In this document: positions 18,731-49,079 of the stretch, one piece after another | How the letters are laid out: the number at the start of each line of letters is the position of its first letter | Position numbering within the stretch: position 1 is the stretch's first letter | Assembly (NCBI RefSeq): GCF_040712075.1 | Contig: NZ_JBFCVL010000010.1 | Span: 62,001 to 126,000 of the forward strand | DNA from: Fodinicurvata sp. EGI_FJ10296 | GTDB lineage: Bacteria > Pseudomonadota > Alphaproteobacteria > DSM-16000 > Inquilinaceae | Direction of reading: 5' to 3' | DNA length: 64,000 bases | Program-made: the position numbers and the translations under genes | The notes under the pieces: model-generated | Database searches by the model: none | The model's input: only the letters and a program-made list of their open reading frames with translations | Told to the model about the DNA's origin: nothing

Positions 18731-19642
18731 TCAGGCGGGCCGCTCGATCCTGGAAGCGACCGGATAGCTGTTCAAGGTCTCTTCGAGCATGCCGATGAAT
18801 TCGACCGAACCGCGCGACCGGGACCGGCCGGCCGCGGAAAGCACGCCGAAGGTAAAGGGCACTTCCGGCTCGAACGGGCGGATCTCGACGTCCCGGTTCT
18901 CGCAGTAAAGCGCGGTGAACGGATCGAACACGGCAACACCCAGCCCCAGTTCGACCAGCCGGCAGGCCACGATCGAAAGCGGCGTCTCGATCTGAATGGC
19001 GATGTCGATGCCGGCGGATTGAATGATGGTTTCCAGGTGCTGACGCAGACTGGACGCGGTCAACGATATCAGCTTTTCGTCGGCGAGATCCCGGGCACGA
19101 ATGCACTGTTTGGCGGTCAGCGGGTGTCCCCTGGACAATGCGCAGACGGCGGCGGCCGTTACGGACATTTCCACCCGGACACCGCGCACGTCGAAGGGCG
19201 GCGCGGCCAGCCCCAGCTCGCAATGCTGCGAAATGATCCATTCCACGACCTGTTGTGAACTTCGCGCATGCAGAGCCAGCCGCGCTTGTGGATGCTGGCC
19301 CTGGAAACTGGCGATCGTCTGCGGGACCAGATCAAGACACAGGCCGGGCATCGCTGCGATGGTCAATCGTGCCTCGCGGAAATTGCTGAGATCGCGGGCG
19401 AATTCGAAAAGCCGCTCCAGGCTCTTGTAGGACCGCTCCACCTCTTCGAACATCTGGATCGCTTCCGGCGTCGGCGACACCCGGCCGTGGCGGCGTTCGA
19501 ACAGCGGAAATGGCAGCGATGCTTCGAGATCGCTGATCAGCCGGCTGACGGACGGCTGGGATATCCGGAGGTATTCCGCCGCTTCGGTCATCGTTCGCGC
19601 CGCCATCACCGCCCGAAACGCCTCGATCTGCCGGTGTCTCAT
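18731..19642 (-). CDS. LysR-family transcriptional regulator
   Basis: This 303-aa LysR-type regulator has an N-terminal winged HTH (QIEAFRAVMAARTMTEAAEYLRISQPSVSRLISDLEASL) and a C-terminal effector domain (about residues 90-290). It is divergent from the flavoenzyme/TTT operon that starts at 19791 and probably regulates it in response to a pathway metabolite. GAGGCGAAAC precedes the ATG. A 7-bp inverted repeat just upstream is a good candidate operator. Confidence 0.9.
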   Translation of the reverse strand: MRHRQIEAFRAVMAARTMTEAAEYLRISQPSVSRLISDLEASLPFPLFERRHGRVSPTPEAIQMFEEVERSYKSLERLFEFARDLSNFREARLTIAAMPGLCLDLVPQTIASFQGQHPQARLALHARSSQQVVEWIISQHCELGLAAPPFDVRGVRVEMSVTAAAVCALSRGHPLTAKQCIRARDLADEKLISLTASSLRQHLETIIQSAGIDIAIQIETPLSIVACRLVELGLGVAVFDPFTALYCENRDVEIRPFEPEVPFTFGVLSAAGRSRSRGSVEFIGMLEETLNSYPVASRIERPA

Positions 19643-19660
19643 GTTTCGCCTCTTTCATTA

Positions 19661-19678
19661 TAATATTTCTGAATATTA
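19661..19678. promoter_or_regulatory. Inverted-repeat operator candidate for the LysR regulator
   Basis: TAATATT-TCTG-AATATTA is a perfect 7-bp inverted repeat, 19 bp upstream of the lysR start and about 115 bp from the divergent operon start. Its AT-rich dyad character fits a LysR (T-N11-A class) binding site. Confidence 0.6.
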
Positions 19679-19790: not shown

Positions 19791-20903
19791 ATGAGTATCA
19801 GCACAACAGCCGATGCCGTTATCGTGGGCGGCGGGCTCGTCGGTGTGGCCATAGCCTATGGCCTCGTCCAGCGCGGGCTCGATGTCGTCATTCTAGACGA
19901 AGGCGATGTCGCCTTCCGGGCATCTCGCGGCAATTTCGGCCTGGTCTGGGTTCAGAGCAAGGGCGTCGGCATGCCGGCCTATGCGCAATGGACCCGCCGC
20001 TCGTCGGATCTGTGGCCGGAATTCGCCGAGACGGTCCGTGAGGACACCGGCATCGACCTGCAGTTCAGCCGCAACGGCGGCTATCAGTTCTGCCTTTCGG
20101 AAAAGGAATTCCAGGACCGCGTGCGCATGATGGATACGCTGGTCGAGGCCTCCGGCGGAACCTTTACTTATGAAATGATGCGGCGCGGCGAACTGGCCGA
20201 CCGGTTACCCGAGCTTGGCCCCGATGTCGTCGGTGCCTCGTTCTCGCCCCATGACGGTCATGTGAACTCGCTGCGGCTGTTCCGCGCCATGCATGTCGGG
20301 TTTCAGAAACACGGCGGCACCTACACCCCGAACAGCCGGGTCACCGACATCACCCGCGACGGCGACGGATTTCGCATCGCCACCGAAAAGGGCGACATTT
20401 ACCGCTCGGCCCGCGTCGTACTGGCAGCGGGCAATGCCACGCGCGAATTGGCGCCCATGGTCGGGTTGGAAGCGCCGGTATCGCCCCAGAAGGGCCAGAT
20501 CCTGGTGACGGCAAAGACCTCGCCGTTTCTCGACTGCCCCACTGCCCAGCTTCGCCAGACGGGCGAGGGCAGCGTACTGATCGGCGATTCCAAGGAGGAA
20601 TCGGGCTTCGAGGACATGACCTCGCCGGAGACCATCAAGATGCTGGCCGACCGCGCCGTGGCGACCTTTCCGGCACTGCAAAAGGTGCGGGTTGTGCGGT
20701 CCTGGGCGGCTTTGCGGGTCATGACGCCCGATGGCTTTCCGGTATACGGCCAATCCGAAACCCATCCGGGCGCCTTTGTCGCCTGCCTGCACAGTGGCGT
20801 GACGCTGGCGGCCGCCCATGTCGGGCCGATGGCCGACGCGATCGCCGGTGGCGGCCTTCCGCCGTCGTTCGAATCCTTCAGCGCGGACCGATTCAATGTT
20901 TAA
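19791..20903 (+). CDS. DAO-family FAD-dependent oxidoreductase (catalytic subunit of a heterotrimeric amine/amino-acid dehydrogenase)
   Basis: This 370-aa flavoenzyme has an N-terminal Rossmann FAD motif (AVIVGGGLVGVAIAYGLVQRGLDVVILDE). A later block, VVRSWAALRVMTPDGFPVYGQ, resembles glycine oxidase and sarcosine/opine dehydrogenase beta subunits. I start at ATG 19791, preceded by GGGAAGG; the frame stays open further upstream. The next two genes encode a small 2Fe-2S protein and a BFD-containing FAD protein, which is the arrangement of HcnABC, opine oxidases (OoxAB/NoxAB) and D-hydroxyproline dehydrogenase. The substrate is therefore a secondary amine or amino acid, not resolvable further. 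Confidence 0.85.
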   Translation: MSISTTADAVIVGGGLVGVAIAYGLVQRGLDVVILDEGDVAFRASRGNFGLVWVQSKGVGMPAYAQWTRRSSDLWPEFAETVREDTGIDLQFSRNGGYQFCLSEKEFQDRVRMMDTLVEASGGTFTYEMMRRGELADRLPELGPDVVGASFSPHDGHVNSLRLFRAMHVGFQKHGGTYTPNSRVTDITRDGDGFRIATEKGDIYRSARVVLAAGNATRELAPMVGLEAPVSPQKGQILVTAKTSPFLDCPTAQLRQTGEGSVLIGDSKEESGFEDMTSPETIKMLADRAVATFPALQKVRVVRSWAALRVMTPDGFPVYGQSETHPGAFVACLHSGVTLAAAHVGPMADAIAGGGLPPSFESFSADRFNV

Positions 20904-21195
20904 GCGGCACTACTCCGATCCGGACGTTCCAACGGTCACGATCCGCTTCGAAGGCGAGGCGATCGAAGCGCGCGCGACCGACACCGTCGCGGCGGCCTTG
21001 CTGATTGCCGGCGTGACCGCGACCCGCACGACGCCGGTCACCGGTCAGCCGCGCGCACCCTATTGCATGATGGGGGTGTGCTTCGACTGCCTGATGGTCA
21101 TCGACGGCGAGGGCGATCGCCAGGCCTGCCTGGTGCCGGTCGCCGAGGGCATGACTGTTTCCCGCCAGAACCGCACGATCGAGGTGGTCCGATGA
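20896..21195 (+). CDS. Small (2Fe-2S)-binding subunit of the flavin dehydrogenase
   Basis: This 99-aa ferredoxin-like protein has the cluster pattern C-x4-C-x2-C (CMMGVCFDC) with a fourth cysteine 13 residues later (QAC). It starts at ATG 20896, overlapping the preceding stop by 8 bp, and its end overlaps the next gene by 4 bp. Proteins of this type (HcnA-like, SoxA N-terminal-like) carry electrons between the two flavoprotein subunits. Confidence 0.88.
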   Translation: MFKRHYSDPDVPTVTIRFEGEAIEARATDTVAAALLIAGVTATRTTPVTGQPRAPYCMMGVCFDCLMVIDGEGDRQACLVPVAEGMTVSRQNRTIEVVR

Positions 21196-22670
21196 CCGAC
21201 AGCTATGATCTCGTCGTGATCGGCGCCGGTCCGGCCGGTCTGTCCGCGGCGACCGAAGGTGCCGCCCGCGGCCTTTCCGTTCTGCTGCTTGACGAGCAGC
21301 CGGGTCCTGGCGGCCAGATCTATCGCGCGTCCGAAACCAGTCCACTGGCCGGGCGCGGCGTACTCGGACCGGAGTATGAGCGGGGCCGGGACCTGGCCGC
21401 GGCTTTTCGCGCCAGCGCCGCCGAATACAGCCCCCGCTCGACGGTGACCGACATCACCCGCGACGGATGGGTCGGGATCGATTGTGACGGCGCGATCCGC
21501 TATGTGCACGGCCGCCGGATTCTGATCGCGACCGGCGCCATGGAACGCCCGTTCCCCATTCGGGGCTGGACCCTGCCCGGCGTGATGACGGCCGGCGCCG
21601 CGCAGACGCTTTTGAAATCCGCCGGCGCCGTGCCGGGATCGCGCACCGTCATGGCGGGCAGCGGGCCGCTATTGTATCTGCTGGCCTGGCAGATCCTGCA
21701 GACCGGCCAGCCGTTGCACGCCATTCTGGATACCGCCGCCCCGTCGAAGACATCGCTGGCGGTTCTCTCCAAACTCCCCGGCGCGATGCGCAAGCCGTCC
21801 TATCTGGTCAAGGGGCTGCGCCTGCTGGCCGCGATCAAGCGGTCCGGCGTGCGCCATGTGCAGGGTGTGACAGGCCTGTCGGCCGAGGGCGACGGCGCCC
21901 TGAACGGTGTCACATTCGAACGCGGCGGCAAAAGCGAACGGCTCGACGCCGACCTTTTGCTGCTGCATCAGGGGGTGGTTCCGAACATTCAGTTGACCCA
22001 GGCATTGCGCTGCGATCACCGCTGGGACGACGGCCAGTTGTGCTGGCGTCCGGTGACGGATGACTGGGGCGTGACCTCTGTCGCCAACATCGCCGTTGCC
22101 GGCGACGGCGGCGGCATCGGCGGCGCTGTTGCGGCTGAATATGCCGGGCGCGTTGCGGCAATCGGCGCGGCCATCGATGCCGGCCGGGTGGACTCAGACG
22201 CCGGCGCGCAGGCAGCCCAACCCCTTCGCGCCGCTTTGGCCCGCGATCTTGCCGCGCGGCCATTGCTCGACGCGCTTTATCGTCCGGCCGACGGCTTCCG
22301 CGTTCCCGAAGACGATGCCGTCGTTGCCTGCCGGTGCGAGGAAGTAACCATCGGAGAAATCCGCAAAGCGGCCAGGATGGGGGCAACCGGCCCGAACCAG
22401 CTCAAGGCGTTTCTTCGCGCGGGCATGGGCGCTTGCCAGGGCCGTCTCTGCGGCTTGACCGTTTCGGAAACCATCGCCCGCGAACGCGGCCAGTCGCCAG
22501 CCGAAACCGGCTACTACCGTATCAGACCCCCCTTCAAACCCGTCACGCTGGGGGCTCTGGCGTCGATGAGCCTTCCGCGCACAACCGGTTATGAAAATCC
22601 GGAAGAACCGGCGAACCCGGAAAAATCGGCAGAAACGCCATCCCCAACCGAATTCCGAACAGGGACATGA
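21192..22670 (+). CDS. FAD/NAD(P)-binding oxidoreductase with BFD-like [2Fe-2S] domain (HcnB/OoxA-like)
   Basis: This 492-aa protein has an N-terminal FAD site (DLVVIGAGPAGLSAATEGAARGLSVLLLDEQPGPGGQIYR), a second dinucleotide fold around residues 150-180, and a C-terminal BFD-type cluster (VACRCEEVTIGEIRKAARMGA... CQGRLCG). It is the electron-accepting subunit of the heterotrimer with the two preceding genes. The last 35 residues are a Pro/Glu-rich tail of low complexity. The start at 21192 overlaps the ferredoxin stop (ATGA). Confidence 0.87.
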   Translation: MTDSYDLVVIGAGPAGLSAATEGAARGLSVLLLDEQPGPGGQIYRASETSPLAGRGVLGPEYERGRDLAAAFRASAAEYSPRSTVTDITRDGWVGIDCDGAIRYVHGRRILIATGAMERPFPIRGWTLPGVMTAGAAQTLLKSAGAVPGSRTVMAGSGPLLYLLAWQILQTGQPLHAILDTAAPSKTSLAVLSKLPGAMRKPSYLVKGLRLLAAIKRSGVRHVQGVTGLSAEGDGALNGVTFERGGKSERLDADLLLLHQGVVPNIQLTQALRCDHRWDDGQLCWRPVTDDWGVTSVANIAVAGDGGGIGGAVAAEYAGRVAAIGAAIDAGRVDSDAGAQAAQPLRAALARDLAARPLLDALYRPADGFRVPEDDAVVACRCEEVTIGEIRKAARMGATGPNQLKAFLRAGMGACQGRLCGLTVSETIARERGQSPAETGYYRIRPPFKPVTLGALASMSLPRTTGYENPEEPANPEKSAETPSPTEFRTGT

Positions 22671-22680
22671 AAAGGAAAAC

Positions 22681-23664
22681 ATGATGAACAAGATGATTTT
22701 GAAAGCCTCCGTCGCCGCCGCGATCCTGGCTGTCTCGGGCGGAGCCGCCCAGGCGGAATGGCCGGAAGAAGCCGTGCGCCTCGTCATTTCATTCTCGCCC
22801 GGCGGCGGAATGGACCAGAGCGTGCTGCCCTTGAAGCCGCTGCTCGAAGAAGACCTCGGCCAGACATTCCTGTACGATTACCGGCCCGGCGCCAGCGGCC
22901 GGATCGGGTTCGAATATGTCTATATGAATGGCGAAGACGGCTACACGGTCAGCGCCCTCAGCGAACCGCATTTCACCAACACCACGATCTTCGACGAACC
23001 GCGCTACACCATTGAAGATCTGGTGCCGGTGGGACTTTTCATGCGCGACGTGCCGGTCTGGTTCGTGCGCAATGACTCGCCCTATCAGGACATGAACGAT
23101 CTGATCGAGGCCGCGCGTGAGATGCCGGGCGAAATTACGGTCGCAACCGGCAGCTTCACCGGCGAACAGTACCTGACGGTCGCCATTCTGGAAGAACAGG
23201 CCGATGTTCAGTTCCGGGCCGTCAATGTTCAGGGCGGCGCGCCGGTGATGAGTAACGTCCTGGGCGGACACATGGATGTCGGTGTTTCCCGTCCGGCCTC
23301 CATCGCCGGGATCGCGGATGAGGTCCGTGCGCTCGGTGTCGTCTCACCGGAACGCAACAACATCTTCCCCGACGCGCCGACCTTCGACGAACAACTGCCG
23401 GAAGAATACGATATTCCGCATTTCAGCTCGTCGCGCGGTTTCGCCGTCCATCGGCAGTTCGCGGAAGAGAACCCGGAAGGTTTCGCACGTCTGGAACAGG
23501 CGCTGCATGATGCCGTGCATTCCGACGCCTATGGCGAGGCGCTCGATCGCATGGGCCTCGATCTCGAATGGGTGCCGTCCGAGGCGGCCCAGGAAGAGAT
23601 TCTCGCGACTGCCCGCATGATGGAACAGTATCGCGAACTGGTCGTGGCAGCGCAGGACCGCTGA
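22681..23664 (+). CDS. tctC: Tripartite tricarboxylate transporter substrate-binding protein, TctC family (cluster 1)
   Basis: This periplasmic binding protein of about 327 aa belongs to the Bug/TctC family. It has a signal peptide with Ala-x-Ala cleavage (GGAAQA before EWPEE). The family opening VRLVISFSPGGGMDQSVLPL forms the ligand loop, with DYRPGASGRIGFEYV next. It starts at ATG ATG (22681 or 22684) after AAAAGGA, 10 bp after the flavoenzyme stop. Bug-family proteins bind carboxylates and amino-acid-like ligands. A long stem-loop follows the gene. Confidence 0.92.
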   Translation: MMNKMILKASVAAAILAVSGGAAQAEWPEEAVRLVISFSPGGGMDQSVLPLKPLLEEDLGQTFLYDYRPGASGRIGFEYVYMNGEDGYTVSALSEPHFTNTTIFDEPRYTIEDLVPVGLFMRDVPVWFVRNDSPYQDMNDLIEAAREMPGEITVATGSFTGEQYLTVAILEEQADVQFRAVNVQGGAPVMSNVLGGHMDVGVSRPASIAGIADEVRALGVVSPERNNIFPDAPTFDEQLPEEYDIPHFSSSRGFAVHRQFAEENPEGFARLEQALHDAVHSDAYGEALDRMGLDLEWVPSEAAQEEILATARMMEQYRELVVAAQDR

Positions 23665-23672
23665 TCGGATTA

Positions 23673-23726
23673 GCGGGCGGGGTGCCGGCACAGCCAACCG
23701 CAGCGCACCGCCGTCCCCCCGCCCGC
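23673..23726 (+). other. Stem-loop between tctC and tctB of cluster 1
   Basis: The arm GCGGGCGGGG at 23673-23682 pairs perfectly with CCCCGCCCGC at 23717-23726. A second palindrome, GTGCCGGCAC, lies inside the loop. No T-tract follows and tctB starts 29 bp later, so it is more likely an mRNA-processing or stability element than a full terminator. Confidence 0.65.
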
Positions 23727-23754
23727 GATCGTTCCCCCGCCGAAAGGTCTGACC

Positions 23755-24159
23755 ATGGCTTTCCTTCGAGAAGCACTGATGCCGCTCGTGGTGCTTGCGT
23801 TCATCGTGGCCTATGTGAGCCTGACGCAGAACAAGCCGGCCGAGAGCACGATTTTCCCCTACACGATCATGATTTTCATTGGCGCGCTTGCCATTGGCAT
23901 ACTTGCGTCATCATGGAAACTGAAAGATTTCTATCGTGTCGCCAATGAAGAGAAGTCTCGGGCACCGCTCGTATTCGCCCTGTCTTTGCTCTTCATTGTC
24001 GGTTTCGTCTATCTCGGCTTCTCCATCGCGGCGCTGGCCTTTCTCGTCGTCTCACTGATCGCCCTGGGCACCAGACCCATTCCATCGATCATTATCTCCG
24101 TCATCCTGACCGGCGGGATCTATCTCCTGTTCGCGATCGGGCTCGGCGTCAGCTTGTAG
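23755..24159 (+). CDS. tctB: Tripartite tricarboxylate transporter small membrane subunit, TctB family (cluster 1)
   Basis: This 134-aa protein has about four hydrophobic helices (LVVLAFIVAYVSL, IFPYTIMIFIGALAIGILA, PLVFALSLLFIVGFVYLGFSIAALAFLVV, ISVILTGGIYLLFAIGL). Sequence conservation in TctB is low, so the assignment rests on size, topology and the position between tctC and tctA. AAAGG precedes the ATG. Confidence 0.85.
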   Translation: MAFLREALMPLVVLAFIVAYVSLTQNKPAESTIFPYTIMIFIGALAIGILASSWKLKDFYRVANEEKSRAPLVFALSLLFIVGFVYLGFSIAALAFLVVSLIALGTRPIPSIIISVILTGGIYLLFAIGLGVSL

Positions 24160-24179
24160 TCCCGGGAAAGGCTTTACGA

Positions 24180-25697
24180 ATGCTGGAAATAATCGGCGAT
24201 CTCAGTTTCACGACCTTTCTCGTGACCCTTGCCGGCATTGTGGTCGGCATGTTCTTCGGTGCATTGCCGGGGTTCGGCGGCAGCGCCTCGATGGCCATCG
24301 TGCTGCCGATCGCCATCGCCATGTCACCGCTGAATGCCATGGTCTTCCTCATCGGGATTTATGCCGGTGGTCATTATGGCGGCGGAATACCCTCTGTCCT
24401 TATCGGCGTGCCCGGCGATGCCGGTGCGGCGGCGACGGTCTTCGACGGCTTCCAGATGACGCGCAACGGCCGCGCCTCGGAGGCGCTGGCGATGCTGGCA
24501 ATGGGCTCGGCGCTGGCAGGTATTTTCAGTGTCATCGCCTTTCTGATCTTCGCACCCATGCTGGCCCGGGCGGCATTGAGCTTCGGACCGCCGGAACTGT
24601 TCATGCTGGTCATCTTCGGCCTGTCGATCCTCGGCTCGATCGATCCGTCGAAAATGCTGAAGACACTGTTTGCAGGTTCGCTGGGCCTCGCCCTGGCGAC
24701 GGTCGGCGTCGATCCCTACTGGGCCGAGCCGCGCATGGTATTCAACATTCCGCAGCTTTACGACGGCCTGCCGTTCATCCCCGCGCTGCTGGGTTTGTTC
24801 TGCATCGCCCAGATGCTTGTCCTGATCGACGAGCGCCATCTGGTCCATACCAATCGCGACGTCGCCAGCCCCTCGTTCGGCAAGACGCTGAAAGGCATGG
24901 TCGAGGTCTTCCGCTATTGGAAGGCACTACTGATCGGGGCACTGTCGGGGACGTTCATCGGCGCGCTGCCGGGCGCCGGCGCAACGATCGCGGCCTTCGT
25001 CGCCTATAACCTGACCAAGAATGTCTCCAAGACACCCGAGACATTCGGCAAGGGCAACCCCGAGGGACTGGTTGCGCCGGAATCCGCCAACAACGCCATT
25101 GTCGGCGGTTCGCTGATCCCGACCTTTGCCCTGGGCATCCCGGGCTCCGGCGCGGCGGCCGTGCTGATGGGCGTCATGATGTATATGGGCCTGCGACCCG
25201 GCCCGCGTCTCTTCGTCGAGCAATTCCCGCTGATCCAGACGCTTGTCGTCTACTTGCTGCTCGGCTGCGTGCTGATGATCGTCATCGGCGCGGTTGCGGC
25301 CGGCACATTCTACAAGCTGACACGCATACCGCTGCGCATCCTGGTACCCTGCGTCATCGTCGCGGCATCTGTCGGCGCCTATGCCTATCGCGGCGAAATC
25401 TTCGACCTGGGTGTCATGATGGGCTTCGGTCTGCTCGGCTATCTCCTGCAAAAGCGCCAGTATCCGCTGAGCGCGGTCGTGCTCGGCCTCGTGCTGGGGC
25501 CGATGGCCGAACAGTATTTCGTCCAGAGCCTCGCGATGACCTCCTGGGATTTCACCGTATTCTTCACGCGGCCGATCACCATGGGTCTCTGGGTGCTGAT
25601 CATCGGGTCGATCGTTTCGTCGATCGTCCTGTACCGCAAGACGAAGAAATCGGATGCCGCTATCAAGGCGGCTTCCACTGCTGAACAAGGCAGTTGA
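24180..25697 (+). CDS. tctA: Tripartite tricarboxylate transporter large membrane subunit, TctA family (cluster 1)
   Basis: This 505-aa permease has about twelve helices. The TctA repeat motifs are GMFFGALPGFGGSASMAIVLP near residue 24 and GTFIGALPGAGATIAAFVAYN near residue 260, and the conserved segment EGLVAPESANNAIVGGSLIPTFALGIPGSGAAAVLMG is present. It forms a secondary transporter with TctB and TctC. Its neighbours suggest import of the compound degraded by the Ntn hydrolase and flavoenzymes of this operon. Confidence 0.94.
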   Translation: MLEIIGDLSFTTFLVTLAGIVVGMFFGALPGFGGSASMAIVLPIAIAMSPLNAMVFLIGIYAGGHYGGGIPSVLIGVPGDAGAAATVFDGFQMTRNGRASEALAMLAMGSALAGIFSVIAFLIFAPMLARAALSFGPPELFMLVIFGLSILGSIDPSKMLKTLFAGSLGLALATVGVDPYWAEPRMVFNIPQLYDGLPFIPALLGLFCIAQMLVLIDERHLVHTNRDVASPSFGKTLKGMVEVFRYWKALLIGALSGTFIGALPGAGATIAAFVAYNLTKNVSKTPETFGKGNPEGLVAPESANNAIVGGSLIPTFALGIPGSGAAAVLMGVMMYMGLRPGPRLFVEQFPLIQTLVVYLLLGCVLMIVIGAVAAGTFYKLTRIPLRILVPCVIVAASVGAYAYRGEIFDLGVMMGFGLLGYLLQKRQYPLSAVVLGLVLGPMAEQYFVQSLAMTSWDFTVFFTRPITMGLWVLIIGSIVSSIVLYRKTKKSDAAIKAASTAEQGS

Positions 25698-25716
25698 GGC
25701 ATAAGGAGAACGACAG

Positions 25717-27438
25717 GTGGCGATGGCTTCTTCCCATCGGGCGCGGATCATCGGCACGCGGCACATGGTTGCCGCGGGCCACTATCTTGCCGCCCAATCT
25801 GCCCTCCAGATTCTGGAGGCCGGCGGCAACGCGGTGGATGCGGCCGTCTCCGGCGGCATCGCGCTCGGCATCCTGCAGAGCGAGTATGTCGGCTTCGGCG
25901 GCGTTGCGCCGATGATGATCCATATGGCCGACCGTAACGAGACCGTGACGATCAGCGGACTCGGCCACTGGCCCCGGGCCGCCAGTCTCGACGTCTTCAC
26001 GAACGAGTATGGCGGCGTCATGCCCAAGGGATTGCTGCGCACGGTCGTGCCGGCTGCCCCCGACGCCTGGATCACGGCACTGGAACGATACGGCACGATG
26101 TCGTATGGCGATGTCGCGGCGGCGGCTCTGCGTTATGCCGCCGAGGGCTTCGCTGCACCGTCTCTGATGTGTGCGATCATCGACAAGGCGCAGGCGGATT
26201 ACCGGCTCTGGGATGCCAATGCAGCGATCTATCTGCCCGGCGGCAAGCCGCCCGCTCCCGGGGATCTGTTCGTACAGAGCGATCTGGCCGGCGTCATCGC
26301 CCATATGATCGATGAAGAAAAAGCCGCTGCCGGTCGTGGCCGGGCCGCCGGCCTGAGCGCCGCGCGCAATGCCTTTTACCGCGGCGACATCGCCCGCACG
26401 ATGGTCGACTATCACATTGCCAATGATGGCTGGCTGCGCAGCGAGGACCTCGCCGGCTTCAGTGTCGATGTCGAGAAAGCCCGCGTCCTCGAAGTCGGTG
26501 GGACGGAGCTCTGCTATTGCGGTGCCTGGTGCCAGGGACCGCTGCTTGCCGAAACGCTGGCGATGCTCGACGGCGTCGATCTGACGACACTGGGCGGTCA
26601 CAACGCACCCGGCTACATCCACTATCTGACCGAAGTGCTGAAACTCGGCTATGCCGATCGGCATCATTATTTCGGCGATCCCAAATTCGTTGATGTGCCG
26701 CTGGATACGCTGACCAGCGCCGACTACGCCCGCTCCCGCCGTGGGGCGATCGATCCGGCCCGCGCCTTCGACGGCATGCCGCCCCCCGGCCGGATACCGG
26801 GCTTCCAACCGGCTTCTGTCCAAAAGGGCGGCGAGGACGATTTCGCGGGGCAACTGGATACGTCCTATATCGCCGTCGTCGACCGGCACGGCAACGCCGT
26901 CTCGGCCACGCCGAGCGACGGCTCGGCCGCTGCGCCCGTCATTCCCGGGCTGGGCTTCGTGCCGTCGTCGCGGGGGTCGCAATCCTGGACCGATCCGAAG
27001 CTTCCCTCGGTCATGGGGCCGGGCCGACGACCGCGGCTGACGCCCAGCCCGGCGATCATCCGCAGGCAGGGCGAATGGATCATGCCGATCGGCTCGCCGG
27101 GCAACGACGTTCAGCCCCAGGCGATGCTGCAGGTTTTCCTGAACATGACGCTGTGGGGCATGACGCCCCAGACGGCCATCGACCAGCCGCGCTTCGCCAC
27201 ATTCAGCTATCCGCGCTCGTCCAGCCCGCATTCGTATGACCCGGGCATGATGAACCTGGAGGCCGATATCGGCGACGAGACGGCCGACGCCCTACGCGGG
27301 CTCGGCCACGACGTCAGGATCTGGCCGGAATGGGAGTATCAGGCCGGCGGCGTCTGTACCGTTCGTGCCGACATGCAAACGGGCATGATGGAAGGCGGCA
27401 GCGACCCGAGGCGTCCGACCGGCGTCGCCACGATCTGA
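25717..27438 (+). CDS. Gamma-glutamyltranspeptidase-like Ntn hydrolase (cluster 1)
   Basis: This 573-aa protein has the GGT fold: ILEAGGNAVDAAVSGGIALGI near residue 32 and the nucleophile block DTSYIAVVDRHGNAVSATPSD, with Thr382 as the predicted autocleavage residue. It departs from true GGTs in the pocket. The RExAP block that holds the alpha-carboxylate is replaced by GLGHWPRAAS (about 81-90), and PLSSMSP is replaced by PRLTPSP (439-445). There is no signal peptide, so it is cytoplasmic. GTG 25717 has AAGGAG eight bases upstream. I infer an amidohydrolase on a non-glutamyl substrate. It is clearly paralogous to the protein at 49142-50875. Confidence 0.85.
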   Translation: MAMASSHRARIIGTRHMVAAGHYLAAQSALQILEAGGNAVDAAVSGGIALGILQSEYVGFGGVAPMMIHMADRNETVTISGLGHWPRAASLDVFTNEYGGVMPKGLLRTVVPAAPDAWITALERYGTMSYGDVAAAALRYAAEGFAAPSLMCAIIDKAQADYRLWDANAAIYLPGGKPPAPGDLFVQSDLAGVIAHMIDEEKAAAGRGRAAGLSAARNAFYRGDIARTMVDYHIANDGWLRSEDLAGFSVDVEKARVLEVGGTELCYCGAWCQGPLLAETLAMLDGVDLTTLGGHNAPGYIHYLTEVLKLGYADRHHYFGDPKFVDVPLDTLTSADYARSRRGAIDPARAFDGMPPPGRIPGFQPASVQKGGEDDFAGQLDTSYIAVVDRHGNAVSATPSDGSAAAPVIPGLGFVPSSRGSQSWTDPKLPSVMGPGRRPRLTPSPAIIRRQGEWIMPIGSPGNDVQPQAMLQVFLNMTLWGMTPQTAIDQPRFATFSYPRSSSPHSYDPGMMNLEADIGDETADALRGLGHDVRIWPEWEYQAGGVCTVRADMQTGMMEGGSDPRRPTGVATI

Positions 27439-27503
27439 CGCCCTCGGCCCTTTTCACCAAACTCACGACACCCTGAAACTCGAAACCGATTGGAAAACGA
27501 CCC

Positions 27504-27851
27504 ATGACCAAGAGAATTGAAAAGACGAAGATCATGCACCGCGTCGTCGAACATGGCGGCGTGCTGTATTTCGGCGGCCTGGTGGCCGACGACATGACAC
27601 TGGGCATGGGCGACCAGACCCGCCAGATCTGTGCGAAGCTGGACAAGCTTCTGGCGGCTGCCGGCTCGGACAAGACCAAACTGCTGACAGCCCAGATCTA
27701 TGTCACCGACATGGGCGGCAAGAACGACATGAACACCGCCTGGCTGGAATGGCTGGACGATGCCCATCTGCCGTCGCGCGCCACCATCGGCGTTGCCAGC
27801 CTCGGCAGCCCGGAAACGCTGATCGAAGTCGTCGTCACGGCCTCGACCTGA
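27504..27851 (+). CDS. RidA-family enamine/imine deaminase-type protein (cluster 1)
   Basis: This 115-aa RidA (YjgF/YER057c/UK114) family member keeps the family's arginine (PSRATIGVASL) and the glutamate in ETLIEVVV, both expected of imine-hydrolysing RidA proteins. These enzymes hydrolyse reactive enamines/imines released by amino-acid-oxidising flavoenzymes, and a DadA-like flavoenzyme follows 15 bp downstream. That pairing supports a function in the same pathway. It is short but complete. Confidence 0.88.
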   Translation: MTKRIEKTKIMHRVVEHGGVLYFGGLVADDMTLGMGDQTRQICAKLDKLLAAAGSDKTKLLTAQIYVTDMGGKNDMNTAWLEWLDDAHLPSRATIGVASLGSPETLIEVVVTAST

Positions 27852-27866
27852 TCGGGCGGGGCCATC

Positions 27867-29153
27867 ATGTCCGGTTCGGATAACACCGCCGCCGATACCG
27901 TCACCGTCATCGGTGCCGGGGTGGTCGGCCTCGCCTGCGCGGTCTGCCTGCAGCGCCAGGGATACCGCGTCAGCCTGATCGACCGCGACGAGCCGGCCTC
28001 CGGCGCGTCGGCGGGGAATGCCGGATCGATCAGTACCGGATCGGTCGTTCCCGTGGCGCTGCCGGGGATGGCGCATCAGATACCGTCCTGGTTGTTCGAC
28101 CGGGACGGTCCTCTTTCGGTCCGCTGGTCATATCTTCCCCGCGCCGCACCGTGGCTGCTGCGATGGCTGCGGTCAGCGCGGGAAGAACCGGTTCGCCGGG
28201 CGGCCGTGGCGCTGGCCACACTCACCCTGTCATCGGTCGACAACTGGTCCGACATCCTCGATCCCGAGGATCGCGCCCGGTTCCTGCGCCGGCAAGGCCA
28301 GCTACTCGTCTCGCGTTCCGCCGACCCCTCACCGGGCGACCTGTTCGCGCAACGGCTGAGGGAAGAAAACGGCGTCGATCTGGCTGTCCTCGGCGCCGAC
28401 GAGATCAGGCAGATGGAGCCCGAACTGGCGTCCGACTTCAAGCGCGGCCTTTACGTTGCCGACAGCGGCCACAGCACTGACCCGCAACGGATGGCGCTTC
28501 GGCTCTACGCCTATTTTCTGGCGGCTGGCGGCACATTCATGAACGCCGATGTCGTCGCCCTGGAGAGTGCCAAGGACGGCACGGTGGTATCGGCCGTAAC
28601 GTCTGGAGGCCGCCTGGCCACCGACCGCATCGTGGTTGCTGCGGGGGCTTACAGCAACAGGCTGGCATCGACCATCGGCGACGCCATTCCCCTGGAAACC
28701 GAGCGCGGCTATCACTGCATGCTGCCCGATCCGGGCATCGATGTGCGGCGGCCGGTCTCGGATATGGATCGAAAGTTCTTCGCCACCGGTATGGAGGACG
28801 GTGTTCGCATCGCCGGGACCGTCGAGATCGCCGGGGTGGATGCCGCGCCCAACCACGACCGCGCACGGTTGCTGATGCGTCAGGGACGCGAGATGTTTCC
28901 CAGGCTGTCAACCGACCAGCACCGGTACTGGATGGGACGCCGCCCGTCGATTCCCGACAGCATGCCGGTCATCGGGCCCTCACCCTCGCGCCCCAATGTC
29001 TGGTACGCGTTCGGTCACGGCCATATCGGCCTGACGACGGCGCCAATCACCGGGCGCATAATCGCCGCACTGATCGCCGGCGCGGCGCCGCCCGTCGACC
29101 CGAGCCCCTTCAGCGTCGACCGGTTTCGATCACGGACCGTCAATCGGCCGTAA
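27867..29153 (+). CDS. DadA-like FAD-dependent D-amino-acid dehydrogenase/oxidase family protein (cluster 1)
   Basis: This 428-aa flavoenzyme has the N-terminal motif VTVIGAGVVGLACAVCLQRQGYRVSLIDRDEPASGASAGNAGSIS, the DadA-type second block ETERGYHCMLPD and the C-terminal MGRRPSIPDSMPVIGPSP. It should oxidise an amine or amino acid to an imine. It is the last gene of the plus-strand operon that starts at 19791 and overlaps the convergent pentapeptide gene by 14 bp. The closest relative in the window is the protein at 50905-52188. The true substrate is unknown; D-amino acids are only the family default. Confidence 0.85.
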   Translation: MSGSDNTAADTVTVIGAGVVGLACAVCLQRQGYRVSLIDRDEPASGASAGNAGSISTGSVVPVALPGMAHQIPSWLFDRDGPLSVRWSYLPRAAPWLLRWLRSAREEPVRRAAVALATLTLSSVDNWSDILDPEDRARFLRRQGQLLVSRSADPSPGDLFAQRLREENGVDLAVLGADEIRQMEPELASDFKRGLYVADSGHSTDPQRMALRLYAYFLAAGGTFMNADVVALESAKDGTVVSAVTSGGRLATDRIVVAAGAYSNRLASTIGDAIPLETERGYHCMLPDPGIDVRRPVSDMDRKFFATGMEDGVRIAGTVEIAGVDAAPNHDRARLLMRQGREMFPRLSTDQHRYWMGRRPSIPDSMPVIGPSPSRPNVWYAFGHGHIGLTTAPITGRIIAALIAGAAPPVDPSPFSVDRFRSRTVNRP

Positions 29154-44916: not shown

Positions 44917-44931
44917 TTTTTTCCGCCACGA

Positions 44932-45065: not shown

Positions 45066-45884
45066 TCAGCGAAGGGTTTTGGAAATAGCCGCAGCGATCT
45101 CCATGACCACGGGCGCCAGAACTTTCGTCGCATCCGCGATCTTCCAGCGCAGAAGTGAAACGGCGATGTTTACCGACCCCACCACATCGCCGTCCCTGTC
45201 GATCACGGCCGATGCAATCGAGACTTCGCCGGTGAAGGCTTCCTGCTCCGCCAGCGCATAGCCTCGGTCGTGGGCCGCGATCAGCTTGGCAACGAGCTCA
45301 TCGATATCCGTGACTGTATATGGCGTGCGCGCTTCCAGCGGCGCGGAACCAAGGATAGACATCGCCCGATCGCGCGGCATCCGGGACAGCATGGCCTGTC
45401 CCGGCGCCGTGCAGAACACCGGAAGACGTGATCCGATCGCAATATCCGAAGTGATGATGTTACGGCTTGGGAAACGGGCGACATAAATGATGTCCGTTCC
45501 GTCCATTTCCGTCAGATTGACGGTCTCATCCGTCAACTTGTTGGCTTCCAGCAGGTACGGAAACGCCTTTTCCGCCAACCCTCCACTGCGCAAATACCCA
45601 CCGGCGAAACTAAGTATTTTGGGCGCCAACAGGTATCGGCGCGTTGTCTCGTCCTTCTTGATGTATCCGAGAGCTGACAGCGTATAGATTATCCTCTGAG
45701 CGCCGCTTCTACCGATACCAGACTGCCTGGAAATTTCCGTCAAGCTCATCGGGGACCGGTGCTCTCCCAATACCTCCAATATTTTCAGGCCTTTGGCGAG
45801 ACCGCCAACGAAAAGCCTCTCATCTATATTTTCGCCGGATTTCGCCAGCGATTCCGGCGGCTCTTTCGGGTTGTCAGCGGCCAT
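45066..45884 (-). CDS. IclR-family transcriptional regulator
   Basis: This regulator of about 272 aa has an N-terminal winged HTH (GLAKGLKILEVLGEHRSPMSLTEISRQSGIGRSGAQRIIYTLSALGYIKKD) and an IclR effector domain (about residues 105-265, with VNLTEMDGTDIIYVARFPS and PVFCTAPGQAMLSRMPRDRA). I prefer ATG 45884, which gives the usual short N-terminus; a GTG at 45935 would add 17 residues. It is divergent from the second TctBAC operon and precedes the TRAP operon on its own strand, so it may control both. Confidence 0.88.
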   Translation of the reverse strand: MAADNPKEPPESLAKSGENIDERLFVGGLAKGLKILEVLGEHRSPMSLTEISRQSGIGRSGAQRIIYTLSALGYIKKDETTRRYLLAPKILSFAGGYLRSGGLAEKAFPYLLEANKLTDETVNLTEMDGTDIIYVARFPSRNIITSDIAIGSRLPVFCTAPGQAMLSRMPRDRAMSILGSAPLEARTPYTVTDIDELVAKLIAAHDRGYALAEQEAFTGEVSIASAVIDRDGDVVGSVNIAVSLLRWKIADATKVLAPVVMEIAAAISKTLR

Positions 45885-45969
45885 CGTTTCCCCGCGCCCT
45901 TGGTGTTCATACAACCGTCGCAAAATGTTTGACACACCCCGCGAACCGTGTAGCCTATATACAATAAAA

Positions 45970-46024: not shown

Positions 46025-46498
46025 TTGAGTGTCACCGCTAAAGACATCATGACAGCCCTTATGCTGATGGCCTTCGCCGGCTTTGGCTGGCAGCAGACTC
46101 AGGGCCTGTCAGCAGAGGCCGCTATGTTCCCGCGTCTGGCGCTGGGGACACTGGCGGCACTGAGCGGCGCATATTTGCTTCGGACGCTTGCATATGCAGG
46201 CATCGGAATCGGAGCTCGAAGAAAAGAAATCAGGGAAGAGGGTGCGTTCTTCACAAACCCCTACCGGTTTTTCGTTTGCTTAGGGTTGATATTAGCATAC
46301 ATCGCAATCTTCCCGACTATTGGCTATTTTATTTCTACATTTATATTTATTCCTCTATTTGTGCTTGGCATTGGGGCCGGACGTCCGGTTGTGGCGATAA
46401 TTTCTTCCTTGGGATTTGTAATTTTTACCTACTTCGTGTTCGTGGTTCTGCTGAACCGGCACTTGCCCAACGACTTTATCATTGATTTTTTATTTTAG
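46025..46498 (+). CDS. tctB: Tripartite tricarboxylate transporter small membrane subunit, TctB family (cluster 2)
   Basis: This 157-aa protein has four helices (IMTALMLMAFAGFGW, LALGTLAALSGAYLL, FFVCLGLILAYIAIFPTIGYFISTFIFIPLFVLGI, AIISSLGFVIFTYFVFVVLL). It begins at TTG 46025, with GGGGGG nine bases upstream; the next in-frame ATG is at 46049. The second half is markedly AT-rich compared with the rest of the operon. It precedes tctA, so the order here is BAC rather than the CBA of cluster 1. Confidence 0.82.
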   Translation: MSVTAKDIMTALMLMAFAGFGWQQTQGLSAEAAMFPRLALGTLAALSGAYLLRTLAYAGIGIGARRKEIREEGAFFTNPYRFFVCLGLILAYIAIFPTIGYFISTFIFIPLFVLGIGAGRPVVAIISSLGFVIFTYFVFVVLLNRHLPNDFIIDFLF

Positions 46499-46507: not shown

Positions 46508-48031
46508 ATGATCGAGATTTTCATCCACGCCTTTCTATCACTCCTGACGCTGGAAATTTTTGCGGCGATGATCGTCGGCACGCTCGCCGGCGTTGTTGTC
46601 GGCGCCATGCCGGGACTGACCACGACAGTCGGACTCGCGGTACTCATTCCGTTTACATTCGGCATCAGCCCACCGGTGGCGCTCGGCCTCATGGCGGGGA
46701 TCTACAACGGTTCCACCTATGGCGGCGCCATTCCGGCGATACTGCTCAACATTCCGGGAACGCCAGCGGCCGTGGCGACGACCTTCGATGGTTTCCCGAT
46801 GTCGCAATCCGGCAAATCGGCGGATGCACTGAAGATCGCCTGCTATTCATCAGCACTGGGCGCAATGCTGTCGGCCGTGGCTTTGATGGTGCTGGCGCCA
46901 CCTTTGTCGCTTCTGACACTGGCATTCGGTCCGGCCGAATACTTCTGGGTCGCGGTCCTCGGCCTCGTCACGATTTCGGTTCTTCTGGGTGCCGACCCCT
47001 TGAAAGGCCTGATCTCCGCTGCGTTGGGTCTTTTCATCGCCTCGGTCGGTATGGATCAGATGACCGGGCGCATGCGCTTCACCTTTGGCCGCCTGGAACT
47101 GGTCGACGGCATAAACATCGTCGTGGTGCTGGTGGGGCTGTTTGCCCTGCCACGGGTTTTCCGGATGGCGGAGGACGCCATCAATGTCGGTATCACCAAG
47201 GACGTGCTCAAGCTGAAAGGTTCCGGGTCCGCCCTTGGCGGACTGGGTTATCTGATCCCGACCTGGCTCAAGTCCGGCGTTATCGGCATCATTATCGGGA
47301 TTCTGCCGGGGGCCGGCGGCAATATCGCCGCGTTTCTCGCTTATAACGAAGCCAAACGGGTCGGCAAGGACGACGCCATCGAATTTGGCAAGGGCAATCC
47401 CAAAGGCGTCGCCGCGGCCGAAGCCGGCAACAGTTCGGACAACGGCGCATCGCTGATCCCGACCCTTACGCTGGGTGTCCCGGGTAATTCCATTGCCGCG
47501 CTGATCATGGGGGGACTGCTCGTCCACGGGCTTCAGCCCGGGCCGTCACTTTTCCGCGATAACCCGGACATCGTGTACGGATTCATGATCCAGATGCTGC
47601 TGACATCGATGCTGCTTTTCGTCGTCGGCGGCATGGTGGCAACAAGGATATTTGCCCAGGCGCTTCGAATTCCACAGACGATCCTCGCACCGATGATCGT
47701 CGGACTGATGGTTCTCGGCGTCTACACGGTCAACAATGCGACTTTCGATCTCTATCTGATGCTCGGATTTGGCTTGCTCGGCTACTTCATGAACAAGAGA
47801 GGCTTTCCTCTGGCTCCGCTTGTCCTTGGCGTAATCCTGGGAGGCCTTGCCGAGCAGAGCCTGAAGACAGCCCTTCGGATTTCCCGCGGTGATTGGAGCA
47901 TTCTCGTCTCCAATTCGATCTCGCAAATCATCATAGCGATCATTCTCCTTGCGCTGCTTACCCCCGTCTGGCGTTGGGCGCGTGCGAAGTTCGCAGACCG
48001 CAGCGCGCGTGAGGCCCGTTACTCCCCCTAG
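46508..48031 (+). CDS. tctA: Tripartite tricarboxylate transporter large membrane subunit, TctA family (cluster 2)
   Basis: This 507-aa permease starts 9 bp after tctB. The TctA repeats are GVVVGAMPGLTTTVGLAVLIPFTFG near residue 30 and GIIIGILPGAGGNIAAFLAYNEAKR near residue 255, and KGVAAAEAGNSSDNGASLIPTLTLGVPGNSIAALIMGGLLVHGLQPGP is present. It is full length and intact, and pairs with the TctB before and TctC after. Confidence 0.93.
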   Translation: MIEIFIHAFLSLLTLEIFAAMIVGTLAGVVVGAMPGLTTTVGLAVLIPFTFGISPPVALGLMAGIYNGSTYGGAIPAILLNIPGTPAAVATTFDGFPMSQSGKSADALKIACYSSALGAMLSAVALMVLAPPLSLLTLAFGPAEYFWVAVLGLVTISVLLGADPLKGLISAALGLFIASVGMDQMTGRMRFTFGRLELVDGINIVVVLVGLFALPRVFRMAEDAINVGITKDVLKLKGSGSALGGLGYLIPTWLKSGVIGIIIGILPGAGGNIAAFLAYNEAKRVGKDDAIEFGKGNPKGVAAAEAGNSSDNGASLIPTLTLGVPGNSIAALIMGGLLVHGLQPGPSLFRDNPDIVYGFMIQMLLTSMLLFVVGGMVATRIFAQALRIPQTILAPMIVGLMVLGVYTVNNATFDLYLMLGFGLLGYFMNKRGFPLAPLVLGVILGGLAEQSLKTALRISRGDWSILVSNSISQIIIAIILLALLTPVWRWARAKFADRSAREARYSP

Positions 48032-48104: not shown

Positions 48105-49079
48105 ATGAAAATATCGAAACCATACCTCCTGGCCGGGGCCGCCGTCCTCAGCCTCGGGATCATGAGCGCGGGCAATGCCCAGGCAGAATATCCGGATCGC
48201 ACGATCTCCCTTATGGTCGGCTTCTCCGCCGGTGGCCCGGTTGATATCACGGCCCGCCAGGTCCAGCCTTTTCTGGAAAAGCATCTTGGCGGCGCGAACA
48301 TCGCCGTCATCAACCGGCCCGGCGCATCGAGTGCCCTGATGCAGCAGGAAGTCGCAAATTCTGACCCCGATGGCTACACTCTCGCCCTGGCCTCGATGCC
48401 GGGCATGGTTGCGGCCCTTTTCGGCGGCGATGCGGAATATTCGATCGACGACTTCGACTATCTCGGCACTTTCACCTCCGAGCCGCACAGCCTGATCGTC
48501 GGCACGGACACGCCCTACGAGGACCTTGACGACCTCGTGGAGCAAGTTCGCCAGGAGCCGCAATCCGTCACCATGGGCGGTGCAGGCCTGGGCTCGGCGG
48601 CACATCTGGCTCTTCTCGTCTTCGAACGTGAAGCTGGCGTCCGATTCAACTTCATTCCCGGCCCCGGCGCGGCGGAGATGCGCAACCAGATCATGGGCGG
48701 CCATATCGACGGCGGCCTGACCGCTGTTGGCGGCGGCGCCCAAATGCATGAAGAAGGCCAGGGTCGGGTCCTGGGCGTCATGGGCGCCGAGCGGTTCGAA
48801 CTCGCGCCTGATCTGCCGACCTTTGTCGAGCAGGGATACGATGTCGAATGGGGCGCCGTGCGCGGCCTTGCGGCACCGGCCGGCCTGCCGGACGATGTCC
48901 GTGAAAAGCTCATCACCGCAATCGAAGCCACCCTGGCCGATCCGGAATTCATTGAACTGACGCAGCGCGACCGGCAGATGATCTACTATCTGGATGCCGA
49001 GGAATTCGCACAACTGGCACGGACCCAGTACGACAATCTGCAGGGAATCTGGGACGAGGAACCCTGGATCGAACAGTAA
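48105..49079 (+). CDS. tctC: Tripartite tricarboxylate transporter substrate-binding protein, TctC family (cluster 2)
   Basis: This 324-aa Bug/TctC protein begins MKISKPYLLAGAAVLSLG and has a signal peptide cut after AQA before EYPDR. The ligand loop block is ISLMVGFSAGGPVDITARQVQPFLEKHLG, followed by VINRPGASSALMQQEVANSDPDGYTLALAS. The start at 48105 follows CAGGGAG; a longer open frame upstream overlaps tctA and is not homologous. A stem-loop follows before the Ntn hydrolase gene. Confidence 0.92.
   Translation: MKISKPYLLAGAAVLSLGIMSAGNAQAEYPDRTISLMVGFSAGGPVDITARQVQPFLEKHLGGANIAVINRPGASSALMQQEVANSDPDGYTLALASMPGMVAALFGGDAEYSIDDFDYLGTFTSEPHSLIVGTDTPYEDLDDLVEQVRQEPQSVTMGGAGLGSAAHLALLVFEREAGVRFNFIPGPGAAEMRNQIMGGHIDGGLTAVGGGAQMHEEGQGRVLGVMGAERFELAPDLPTFVEQGYDVEWGAVRGLAAPAGLPDDVREKLITAIEATLADPEFIELTQRDRQMIYYLDAEEFAQLARTQYDNLQGIWDEEPWIEQ

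Follow-up and report, generated by a model that had tools for sequence, protein, structure and literature searches.

Several described systems lie close to the locus considered here. In the octopine (occ) operon of the Agrobacterium plasmid pTiA8196 the genes read occR, occQMPT, ooxB, a 2Fe-2S protein gene, ooxA, RidA and ocd. In flavin opine dehydrogenases the gamma subunit carries the motif C-x4-C-x2-C-x11/12-C, and the beta subunits NoxB and OoxB are 38% identical (PMC4575208). LmbA, Ant6 and LmbA2991 are homologues of gamma-glutamyltransferase (GGT) that cleave a C-C bond, with LmbA2991 and Ant6 cutting themselves at an Asp-Thr pair, D420-T421 in LmbA2991 (PMC5519988), and in the GGT of Escherichia coli the change R114L leaves no detectable activity (PMC8062742). 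Here, we analyse a stretch of 64,000 nucleotides (the window) of Fodinicurvata sp. EGI_FJ10296, contig NZ_JBFCVL010000010.1, positions 62,001 to 126,000, where an operon that we call copy 1 brings together genes related to all of these systems.

We propose that copy 1 is an opine-type catabolic operon, composed of a LysR regulator of the OccR kind, a flavin opine dehydrogenase OdhB-OdhC-OdhA, a tripartite tricarboxylate transporter (TTT) as the importer, an LmbA-type GGT homologue belonging to the N-terminal nucleophile (Ntn) hydrolases, RidA and a DadA-like flavoenzyme, and we give this proposal about an even chance of being correct.

Layout of copy 1 and its regulator

The operon comprises nine plus-strand genes (19791-29153), and with the divergent LysR gene the full unit is 18731-29153. 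Its features are as follows.

18731..19642, minus strand: LysR-family regulator, OccR-like, divergent (Pfam LysR_substrate and HTH_1)
19661..19678, no strand: inverted repeat, candidate LysR operator (TAATATT-N4-AATATTA, T-N11-A form)
19791..20903, plus strand: OdhB/OoxB type 1, predicted opine dehydrogenase beta subunit, HcnC-like (PF01266)
20896..21195, plus strand: OdhC, predicted opine dehydrogenase gamma subunit, 2Fe-2S (PF13510)
21192..22670, plus strand: OdhA/OoxA, predicted opine dehydrogenase alpha subunit, HcnB-like (PF07992, PF17806, PF04324)
22681..23664, plus strand: TctC, TTT solute-binding protein (PF03401)
23755..24159, plus strand: TctB, TTT small membrane subunit (PF07331)
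24180..25697, plus strand: TctA, TTT large membrane subunit (PF01970, 455.5 bits)
25717..27438, plus strand: GGT1, cytoplasmic LmbA-type GGT homologue, Ntn hydrolase (PF01019, 329 bits)
26857..26862, plus strand: predicted self-cleavage site Asp381-Thr382 of GGT1, nucleophile Thr382 (alignment to E. coli Thr391)
27504..27851, plus strand: RidA1, RidA-type imine deaminase (PF01042)
27867..29153, plus strand: DadA1, DAO/DadA-like flavoenzyme (PF01266)

The OdhB start at 19791 is our choice, with an alternative TTG start open at 19695. The trimer genes overlap, OdhC starting (20896) within OdhB, which ends at 20903, and OdhA starting (21192) within OdhC, which ends at 21195; after the trimer the intergenic gaps are, in order, 10, 90, 20, 19, 65 and 15 bp, i.e., 90 bp at most. 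Between the plus-strand genes of copy 1 no plus-strand terminator-like site was found, and on both strands there are 9 terminator-like sites as compared with 7.0 +/- 3.3 in shuffles. It is likely that the plus-strand genes form a single operon and are co-transcribed. With TctA, TctB and TctC all present, the transporter of copy 1 is complete.

An earlier note on this DNA had described TctCBA, a GGT-like hydrolase, RidA and a DadA-like oxidase closely behind a heterotrimeric flavin dehydrogenase and a divergent LysR gene, and every one of these genes is present where it was placed, with a match to its family. The limits given there, 22681-29153, begin too late, since the trimer and the LysR gene belong to the unit and the operon runs from 19791; similarly, the flavin trimer exists, but its generic label gives way to the opine-dehydrogenase type by identity and clade.

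The LysR protein is 35.9% identical to OccR of pTiA8196 and 39.3% identical to the LysR protein adjoining an Azospirillum trimer. The gap between the LysR gene and OdhB contains TAATATTTCTGAATATTA, which is the sole such repeat in the 64 kb with at most one mismatch allowed and has no counterpart in 100 shuffles; the same scan of the window finds no such repeat at copy 2, the related gene set described below. In Natronohydrobacter (locus L009; loci of other contigs are denoted by L and a number) the gap between LysR and OdhB retains 16 of the 18 bases, about as far from the LysR gene as here. T-N11-A is the form of LysR-type operators, and the inverted repeat of copy 1 fits a candidate operator of this type, by which the OccR-kind LysR would regulate the copy 1 operon.

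The flavin trimer, RidA and the GGT homologue

Compared with the pTiA8196 octopine oxidase, the subunits of the trimer reach identities of 45.5% (to OoxB), 46.0% (to OoxA) and 51.9% (to the 2Fe-2S protein, whose gene separates those of OoxB and OoxA). To the pTiC58 genes the identities of the beta, gamma and alpha subunits are 41.4, 38.8 and 44.0% (NoxB 41.4%, NoxA 44.0%), where the pTiC58 nopaline-region trimer carries no more than the general annotations FAD-dependent oxidoreductase, 2Fe-2S protein and NAD(P)/FAD oxidoreductase and is read here as noxB-C-A. These beta and alpha identities of 41-46% refer to the Ti homologues and not to the Pseudomonas putida or Bradyrhizobium japonicum proteins. 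The gamma subunit OdhC carries the 2Fe-2S motif C-x4-C-x2-C-x12-C, OdhB carries GxGxxG and Arg-x-Trp, and OdhA carries GxGxxG and C-x-C ... C-x4-C. The motifs that PMC4575208 names for the flavin opine dehydrogenase are thus found in the trimer save for the alpha Cys spacing, which differs from the NoxA spacing by no more than one residue and exceeds the range printed there. In a FastTree tree of 41 rows, which holds no D-hydroxyproline dehydrogenase or HCN synthase reference, the beta subunit falls into an 18-row clade with OoxB and NoxB at an SH-like support of 100, separate from the DadA group and from the second DAO genes. Moreover, it is nearer to OoxB (45.5%) than NoxB is (38%, PMC4575208). 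As judged by sequence, the first three genes of copy 1 are assigned to a flavin opine dehydrogenase of the OoxB-OoxC-OoxA type rather than to a generic flavin dehydrogenase.

RidA1 is 53.1% identical to the RidA encoded behind ooxA on pTiA8196. Both RidA1 and the second RidA of the window, RidA2, conserve Arg105 and Glu120 of E. coli RidA, which we take to be its catalytic residues. The steps that the trimer and RidA1 would perform are assigned from family membership. RidA1 also matches PA5083 in the PDB, which is presumably DguB; a dgu-like D-glutamate catabolism was considered from this match and dropped, as the literature search gave nothing related.

Trimer genes were found in 54 of 387 sampled alphaproteobacterial genomes, by a search that, like all others of this kind here, scored the top 3-5 candidates of each genome. 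Among 40 trimer regions of an even sample (40 of the 57 non-own places listed), B-C-A is complete in 39, and within 6 kb 19 of the regions have a LysR gene, 23 a labelled importer, 21 a second DAO gene and 5 RidA; the labels come from profiles built on genes of the window and of annotated plasmids and cover those families. The importers vary in kind, most of them being ABC systems (polyamine and peptide types), with TAXI/TRAP in 3. RidA genes lie directly behind or near OoxBCA-type trimers in L211, L220, L226, L237, L242, L093-L095, L254 and, on pTiA8196, L252:11847-12191. Such RidA genes, in 5 of the 40 even-sample regions and in occ of pTiA8196, suggest that opine oxidation often uses RidA. 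Malate synthase G is found near a LysR-ABC-OdhBCA-RidA operon in L095 (81-2210) and L237, which hints at a glyoxylate product in some members; as a general product glyoxylate was set aside, with this gene beside the trimer operon in these two loci only.

We now turn to the GGT homologue. GGT1 and its copy 2 counterpart GGT2 are 28-30% identical to E. coli Ggt and score 253.5 and 270.7 bits, below the cut-off of 357.85 bits of the NCBIfam GGT model TIGR00066; the nearest annotated plasmid records name such proteins gamma-glutamyltransferase. Thr391 of the E. coli enzyme is conserved in both, its counterpart in GGT1 being Thr382, while other E. coli residues are changed in both copies: Arg114 to Leu, Asn411 to Asp, Gln430 to Arg, Asp433 to Gln, Ser462 to Leu and Ser463 to Thr. 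Among these, Arg114, Asp433 and Ser462 belong to the pocket that binds the gamma-glutamyl group, and Asn411 and Gln430 are, we assume, likewise involved in gamma-glutamyl binding. Two further parts of the E. coli enzyme, its lid loop and the signal-peptide stretch at its N-terminus, are missing from both copies in the alignment. Because the gamma-glutamyl-binding residues are replaced in both copies, the GGT homologue is predicted not to be a gamma-glutamyl enzyme.

The pair Asp381-Thr382 is invariant in all 44 aligned sequences and in all 38 even-sample relatives, two sets that overlap. By sequence, the nearest solved structure is 6j3a at 251.7 bits, with the best true GGT reaching 158.9 bits; by fold, it is again LmbA2991 (6j3a), with a TM value of 0.92 and 34% identity (Foldseek, GGT1 model with pLDDT 93.8). 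All 38 of these relatives have the same pocket residues, Ser400, Asp401, Arg419, Gln422, Arg438, Arg440, Leu441, Thr442, Asp464, Gln466 and Gln468. LmbA2991 has Arg419, Arg438, Arg440, Asp464, Gln466 and Gln468 in common with GGT1, while Gln422 and Leu441 differ. Since Arg419 and Arg440 are missing from E. coli GGT, these two arginines suggest an acidic substrate for GGT1. Cleavage of an amide by GGT1 is possible; the homologue LmbA2991 cleaves a C-C bond.

The GGT subfamily (E <= 1e-140) occurs in 33 of the 387 sampled genomes, the source genome included. A third GGT of the subfamily (49-51%) is found in the source genome at L100:8073-13970 (contig C6), between a TRAP permease gene and a 2-hydroxyacid dehydrogenase gene, and GGT with 2-hydroxyacid dehydrogenase recurs in L022. 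At L012:4393-5208 a GGT1 relative (61%) adjoins two genes, one of the D-glutamate cyclase family (PF07286) and one for a nucleoside hydrolase, and at L034:9860-11692 an in-frame stop, either a sequencing error or the mark of a broken gene, divides the GGT gene into two pieces (596 and 336 bits). A divergent pair is present in L025, L027, L028, L042, L066, L067, L069, L071, L074, L075, L076, L080, L086 and L087, in which one strand carries TctC and a GGT-family gene that matches GGT2 only distantly (about 150-166 bits), and the other strand a subfamily GGT followed by one or two TctC genes; the genomes having it are metagenome-assembled genomes (MAGs) mostly named Betaproteobacteria or Burkholderiales.

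For the last enzyme of copy 1, DadA1, the best NCBIfam model is NF001933 (DadA), at 223.5 bits under a cut-off of 383. It groups with DadA genes located within about 1 kb of GGTs in L036, L044 and L063 and with two more from its own genome. A third close DadA relative (46-47%) is present just beyond the window end, at L098:4445-12954 (own contig C10), beside HyuA, HyuB, TRAP and LysR genes; there, the same type of oxidase as DadA1 and DadA2, its copy 2 counterpart, stands behind a different amide-opening enzyme.

Copy 2 and related loci in other genomes

The related gene set of the window, copy 2, has the following features.

45066..45935, minus strand: IclR regulator, divergent (PF01614, PF09339)
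46025..46498, plus strand: TctB (PF07331)
46508..48031, plus strand: TctA (PF01970; 35.8% to copy 1)
48105..49079, plus strand: TctC (PF03401; 30.6% to copy 1; start chosen by us inside the open reading frame 47949-49079)
49142..50875, plus strand: GGT2 (PF01019; same subfamily, other tree group; 49.6% to GGT1)
50905..52188, plus strand: DadA2 (PF01266; 45.1% to DadA1)

The order TctB-TctA-TctC-GGT2-DadA2 (46025-52188) differs in its TTT genes from that of copy 1 (TctC-TctB-TctA). Besides the identities given above, RidA1 and RidA2 are 35.1% identical, and the two TctB proteins 29% over 48 amino acids. In the GGT tree, GGT1 stands with L009, L010 and L013 (support 100/98) inside an 11-row group that excludes GGT2, while GGT2 pairs with the second GGT of L009 (100/99). 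Because they lie in separate groups of this tree, GGT1 and GGT2 are taken to be old paralogues and not the outcome of a fresh duplication. A recent duplication of one module is rejected in view of the tree and of the low TTT identities. TctBAC, GGT and DadA do recur within the repeat that the earlier note placed at 46025-54333, but RidA2 is not a shared partner: it is encoded at 53977-54333 on the minus strand, in a separate run of HyuA, HyuB, an alpha/beta hydrolase, RidA2, GntR and a 2-hydroxyacid dehydrogenase from 58994 down to 52210, and this position rules it out as a member of copy 2. The run at 52210-58994 forms a hydantoinase/oxoprolinase catabolic unit of its own, which faces copy 2. 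On the minus strand at 35032-45041 there are a further HyuB, HyuA, an acyl-CoA-ligase-like ATP-grasp protein and an Amidohydro_2 protein, followed by a 614-aa open reading frame and a binding protein; the profile of the latter picks out the TAXI gene annotated in L091. As a whole, the window resembles a catabolic island in which sets of an importer and an amidase are repeated.

To describe the neighbourhoods of the GGT subfamily in other genomes, two overlapping sets (at least five contigs agree in length, at 67051, 53628, 162071, 212161 and 11412) were used: the 80 nearest loci, which are the best 80 of 483 relatives, and 37 even-sample regions, which cover 38 non-own places. Of 37 regions sought as controls 32 exist, and the comparison draws on those of 9 kb or more, 26 in number. 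Within 5 kb of the GGT, 45 of the 80 nearest loci have a labelled importer, 28 have TctC, 23 a DAO gene of any kind and 3 RidA; by BLAST within 10 kb, an OdhA-type gene is present in 3 (L009 56%, L037 52%, L063 50%), a close DadA in 4 (L009, L036, L044, L063) and RidA in 2. In the even sample, the counts within 5 kb are 12 of 37 for the importer (control 3/26, Fisher p 0.07), 3 for DAO (control 2/26, p 1.0), 1 for TctC (control 0/26) and 0 for RidA (control 1/26), and within 10 kb none of the 37 regions has a close DadA relative, a DadA-like gene at 35% in L105 failing the filter for close relatives. Because RidA and close DadA are found in 0/37 and TctC in 1/37 of the even sample, the set of TTT, GGT, RidA and DadA is an uncommon assembly and not a conserved unit. 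The expectation that the Ntn hydrolase would be found beside TTT, RidA and DadA-like genes elsewhere thus points to an association that is real but narrow, and of the idea that recurring partners mark a real pathway there remains that two GGT modules occur together in L009 too, but not a conserved four-gene set.

The link between Odh and GGT recurs in three other genomes. Natronohydrobacter L009 keeps the order LysR, trimer, TTT, GGT, RidA, with 56-72% identity to copy 1 for the trimer, TctC, TctA, GGT and RidA and 36% for TctB; both of its GGT units lie within 19 kb, and the available stretch ends in the DadA gene of the second unit. In L037, a Rhodospirillales MAG whose contig starts inside the alpha gene, this alpha gene (51.8% to that of the window) is followed after 6 bp by a gene of the octopine/nopaline dehydrogenase family PF02317 (54.2 bits against a cut-off of 30), and then come genes for an amidohydrolase, for a binding protein and for a GGT of GGT1's 11-row group. 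In L063, a betaproteobacterial MAG, the order is GGT, TctC, DadA, MmgE/PrpD, TctC, OdhB-C-A, GGT. By a rough estimate, about 0.06 Odh-GGT loci are expected by chance in 80, giving P of 0.0017 for two (without L009) and 0.00003 for three.

Proposed pathway and comparison with known systems

Based on the opine-type reading of copy 1, a pathway can be drawn, in which we infer the order of the steps, the substrate class and the bond cut by GGT1. TctCBA would import an acidic secondary-amine (opine-like) compound. GGT1, in the cytoplasm, would cut itself at Asp381-Thr382, and Thr382 would then take off an acyl group, most likely one that is amide or lactam-derived. OdhBCA would oxidise the secondary amine to an imine, giving an amino acid and a 2-oxo acid, with the electrons passing to the respiratory chain; DadA1 would oxidise the freed amino acid, and RidA1 would hydrolyse the imines or enamines arising from the OdhBCA and DadA1 steps. 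From the pathway sketched earlier for these genes, import, amine oxidation and imine hydrolysis are kept, as the opine-type trimer and Arg105/Glu120 of RidA indicate, while gamma-glutamyl chemistry is not supported, its binding residues being lost.

A further and more specific proposal, which is tentative and which we consider less likely than not, is that copy 1 represents a new branch of opine catabolism, where a cytoplasmic LmbA-type Ntn hydrolase strips an acyl group (amide, lactam-derived or oxalyl) from a modified opine imported by the TTT, and the octopine-oxidase-type trimer then splits the secondary amine. If this is true, acylated or amidated opines would form a class that has so far gone unrecognised, and bacteria unconnected to crown galls would use it. 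If GGT1 shares the compound of the opine dehydrogenase, databases would misname a whole subfamily and a natural opine class would be missing from the catalogue. In any case, secondary-amine (opine-like) compounds provide a testable chemical class for the pathway, and the GGT homologue subfamily is given a testable role.

Some results weigh against reading copy 1 as an opine-type operon. D-hydroxyproline dehydrogenase and HCN synthase share the trimer architecture and neither is in the tree, so a non-opine substrate is possible. No relatives of ornithine cyclodeaminase or arginase were found in the window with pTi protein queries at E <= 1e-10. The pairing of Odh and GGT is rare, because a GGT of the GGT1 subfamily lies within 10 kb in 0/40 even-sample trimer regions and OdhA lies within 10 kb in 0/37 even-sample GGT regions. 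The copy-1 unit of L009 has no DadA, another GGT-family gene (29% to GGT2) being placed behind RidA instead, and among the three relatives closest to GGT1 the trimer is present in L009 alone, the available stretches of L010 and L013 having none. In addition, the chance estimate rests on an assumed genome of 4 Mb, on the trimer being in 54 of 387 genomes and on loci picked by similarity to the query.

Four other explanations are considered here together. GGT1 could act as LmbA does, hydrolysing a C-C bond beside a 2-oxo acid via the kind of oxalyl-Thr intermediate that has been put forward for LmbA and Ant6, on a cyclic imine or enamine made by the flavoenzymes. The sequence scores (251.7 bits against 158.9 bits for the best true GGT), the fold, the common Asp-Thr site and the six shared pocket residues all agree with this, and HpxW, for which we assume oxamate activity, is also in the fold list; nevertheless, we regard it as unlikely, with only 34% identity to LmbA2991, with different residues there at Gln422 and Leu441, which all 38 relatives keep, and with no evident substrate having a 2-oxo side chain. 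The activity of LmbA2991 itself is about 37% of that of Ant6 (PMC5519988). Alternatively, copy 1 could serve the catabolism of D-amino acids or lactams with no opine involved, where GGT or a hydantoinase opens the amide and the DadA-like and trimer enzymes oxidise a D-amino or imino acid, as in D-hydroxyproline dehydrogenase. This agrees with the close DadA relatives of the source genome that have HyuAB and TRAP genes adjoining them (L098) or a CN-hydrolase gene nearby (L099), with HyuA in 4 of 40 DadA-clade regions (the best 40 non-own places among the matches listed) and with the GGT1 relative of L012 that adjoins a D-glutamate cyclase family gene. It is rather unlikely, as the beta subunit clades with both OoxB and NoxB and is nearer to OoxB than NoxB is (45.5% against 38%, PMC4575208).

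If, by contrast, the trimer were a bystander, an imported amide, gamma-glutamyl or similar, would be cut by the GGT-like enzyme, the freed amine oxidised by DadA and the product cleared by RidA. Gene adjacency, the presence of GGT with DadA again in copy 2 and their occurrence within about 1 kb of each other in L036, L044 and L063 speak for this. However, Arg114, Asn411, Gln430, Asp433 and Ser462 of E. coli GGT are replaced by Leu, Asp, Arg, Gln and Leu in both copies, R114L leaving the E. coli enzyme without detectable activity (PMC8062742), RidA1 resembles the RidA of the occ operon, and RidA and close DadA are both at 0/37 in the even-sample GGT regions. We thus hold this explanation to be quite improbable, and gamma-glutamyl-amide catabolism as its core idea is rejected because of the replaced residues. 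That the genes are independent neighbours on a catabolic island with many transporter and flavoenzyme genes would agree with DAO (3/37 against 2/26 in the controls) and RidA (0/37 against 1/26) being no commoner near even-sample GGTs; yet the gaps of at most 90 bp across nine genes, the order of LysR, trimer, TTT, GGT and RidA kept in L009 at 56-72% identity (TctB 36%) and the three further Odh-GGT loci make it very improbable.

In a limited literature search, from which absence from print is not claimed, no paper uniting the tripartite tricarboxylate transporter, RidA and gamma-glutamyltransferase was found; for TTT, opine and catabolism the available passages concern a mannopine ABC operon, and the papers among the matches listed that unite RidA, octopine and opine are unrelated by title.

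Finally, we compare copy 1 with the known systems. With E. coli Ggt, GGT1 has in common the Ntn fold and the catalytic Thr, while the gamma-glutamyl-binding residues, the lid loop and the signal peptide are missing. With LmbA, Ant6 and LmbA2991 (PMC5519988) it has in common the fold, the Asp-Thr self-cleavage site, Arg419, Arg438, Arg440, Asp464, Gln466 and Gln468; besides the modest identity and the different residues at Gln422 and Leu441, the context of GGT1 is catabolic whereas theirs is biosynthetic. DadA1 has the DAO fold and its best NCBIfam model in common with DadA (NF001933) but scores under the cut-off. OdhABC of P. putida and B. japonicum (PMC4575208) resembles the trimer in its B-C-A gene order and cofactor motifs, whereas copy 1 is without a second DAO gene directly behind OdhA; in 21 of the 40 trimer regions sampled such a gene lies no more than 6 kb from OdhB. 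In the noc region of pTiC58, hydantoinase A/B adjoin the flavin trimer, and therefore there is at least one parallel for an amide-opening enzyme next to an opine oxidase. In gene arrangement copy 1 resembles occ of pTiA8196, with which it has in common the LysR regulator, the order OoxB-2Fe-2S-OoxA and a RidA gene behind ooxA. What appears to be novel is GGT1 and the TTT in an opine operon, the enzyme core being already known. Because the trimer, LysR and RidA (53.1% to RidA1) also stand together in the octopine operon of pTiA8196, copy 1 can be regarded as an occ-like variant of a known operon type, in which a TTT takes the place of the ABC permease of occ and noc and the GGT homologue and the DadA-like flavoenzyme are added.

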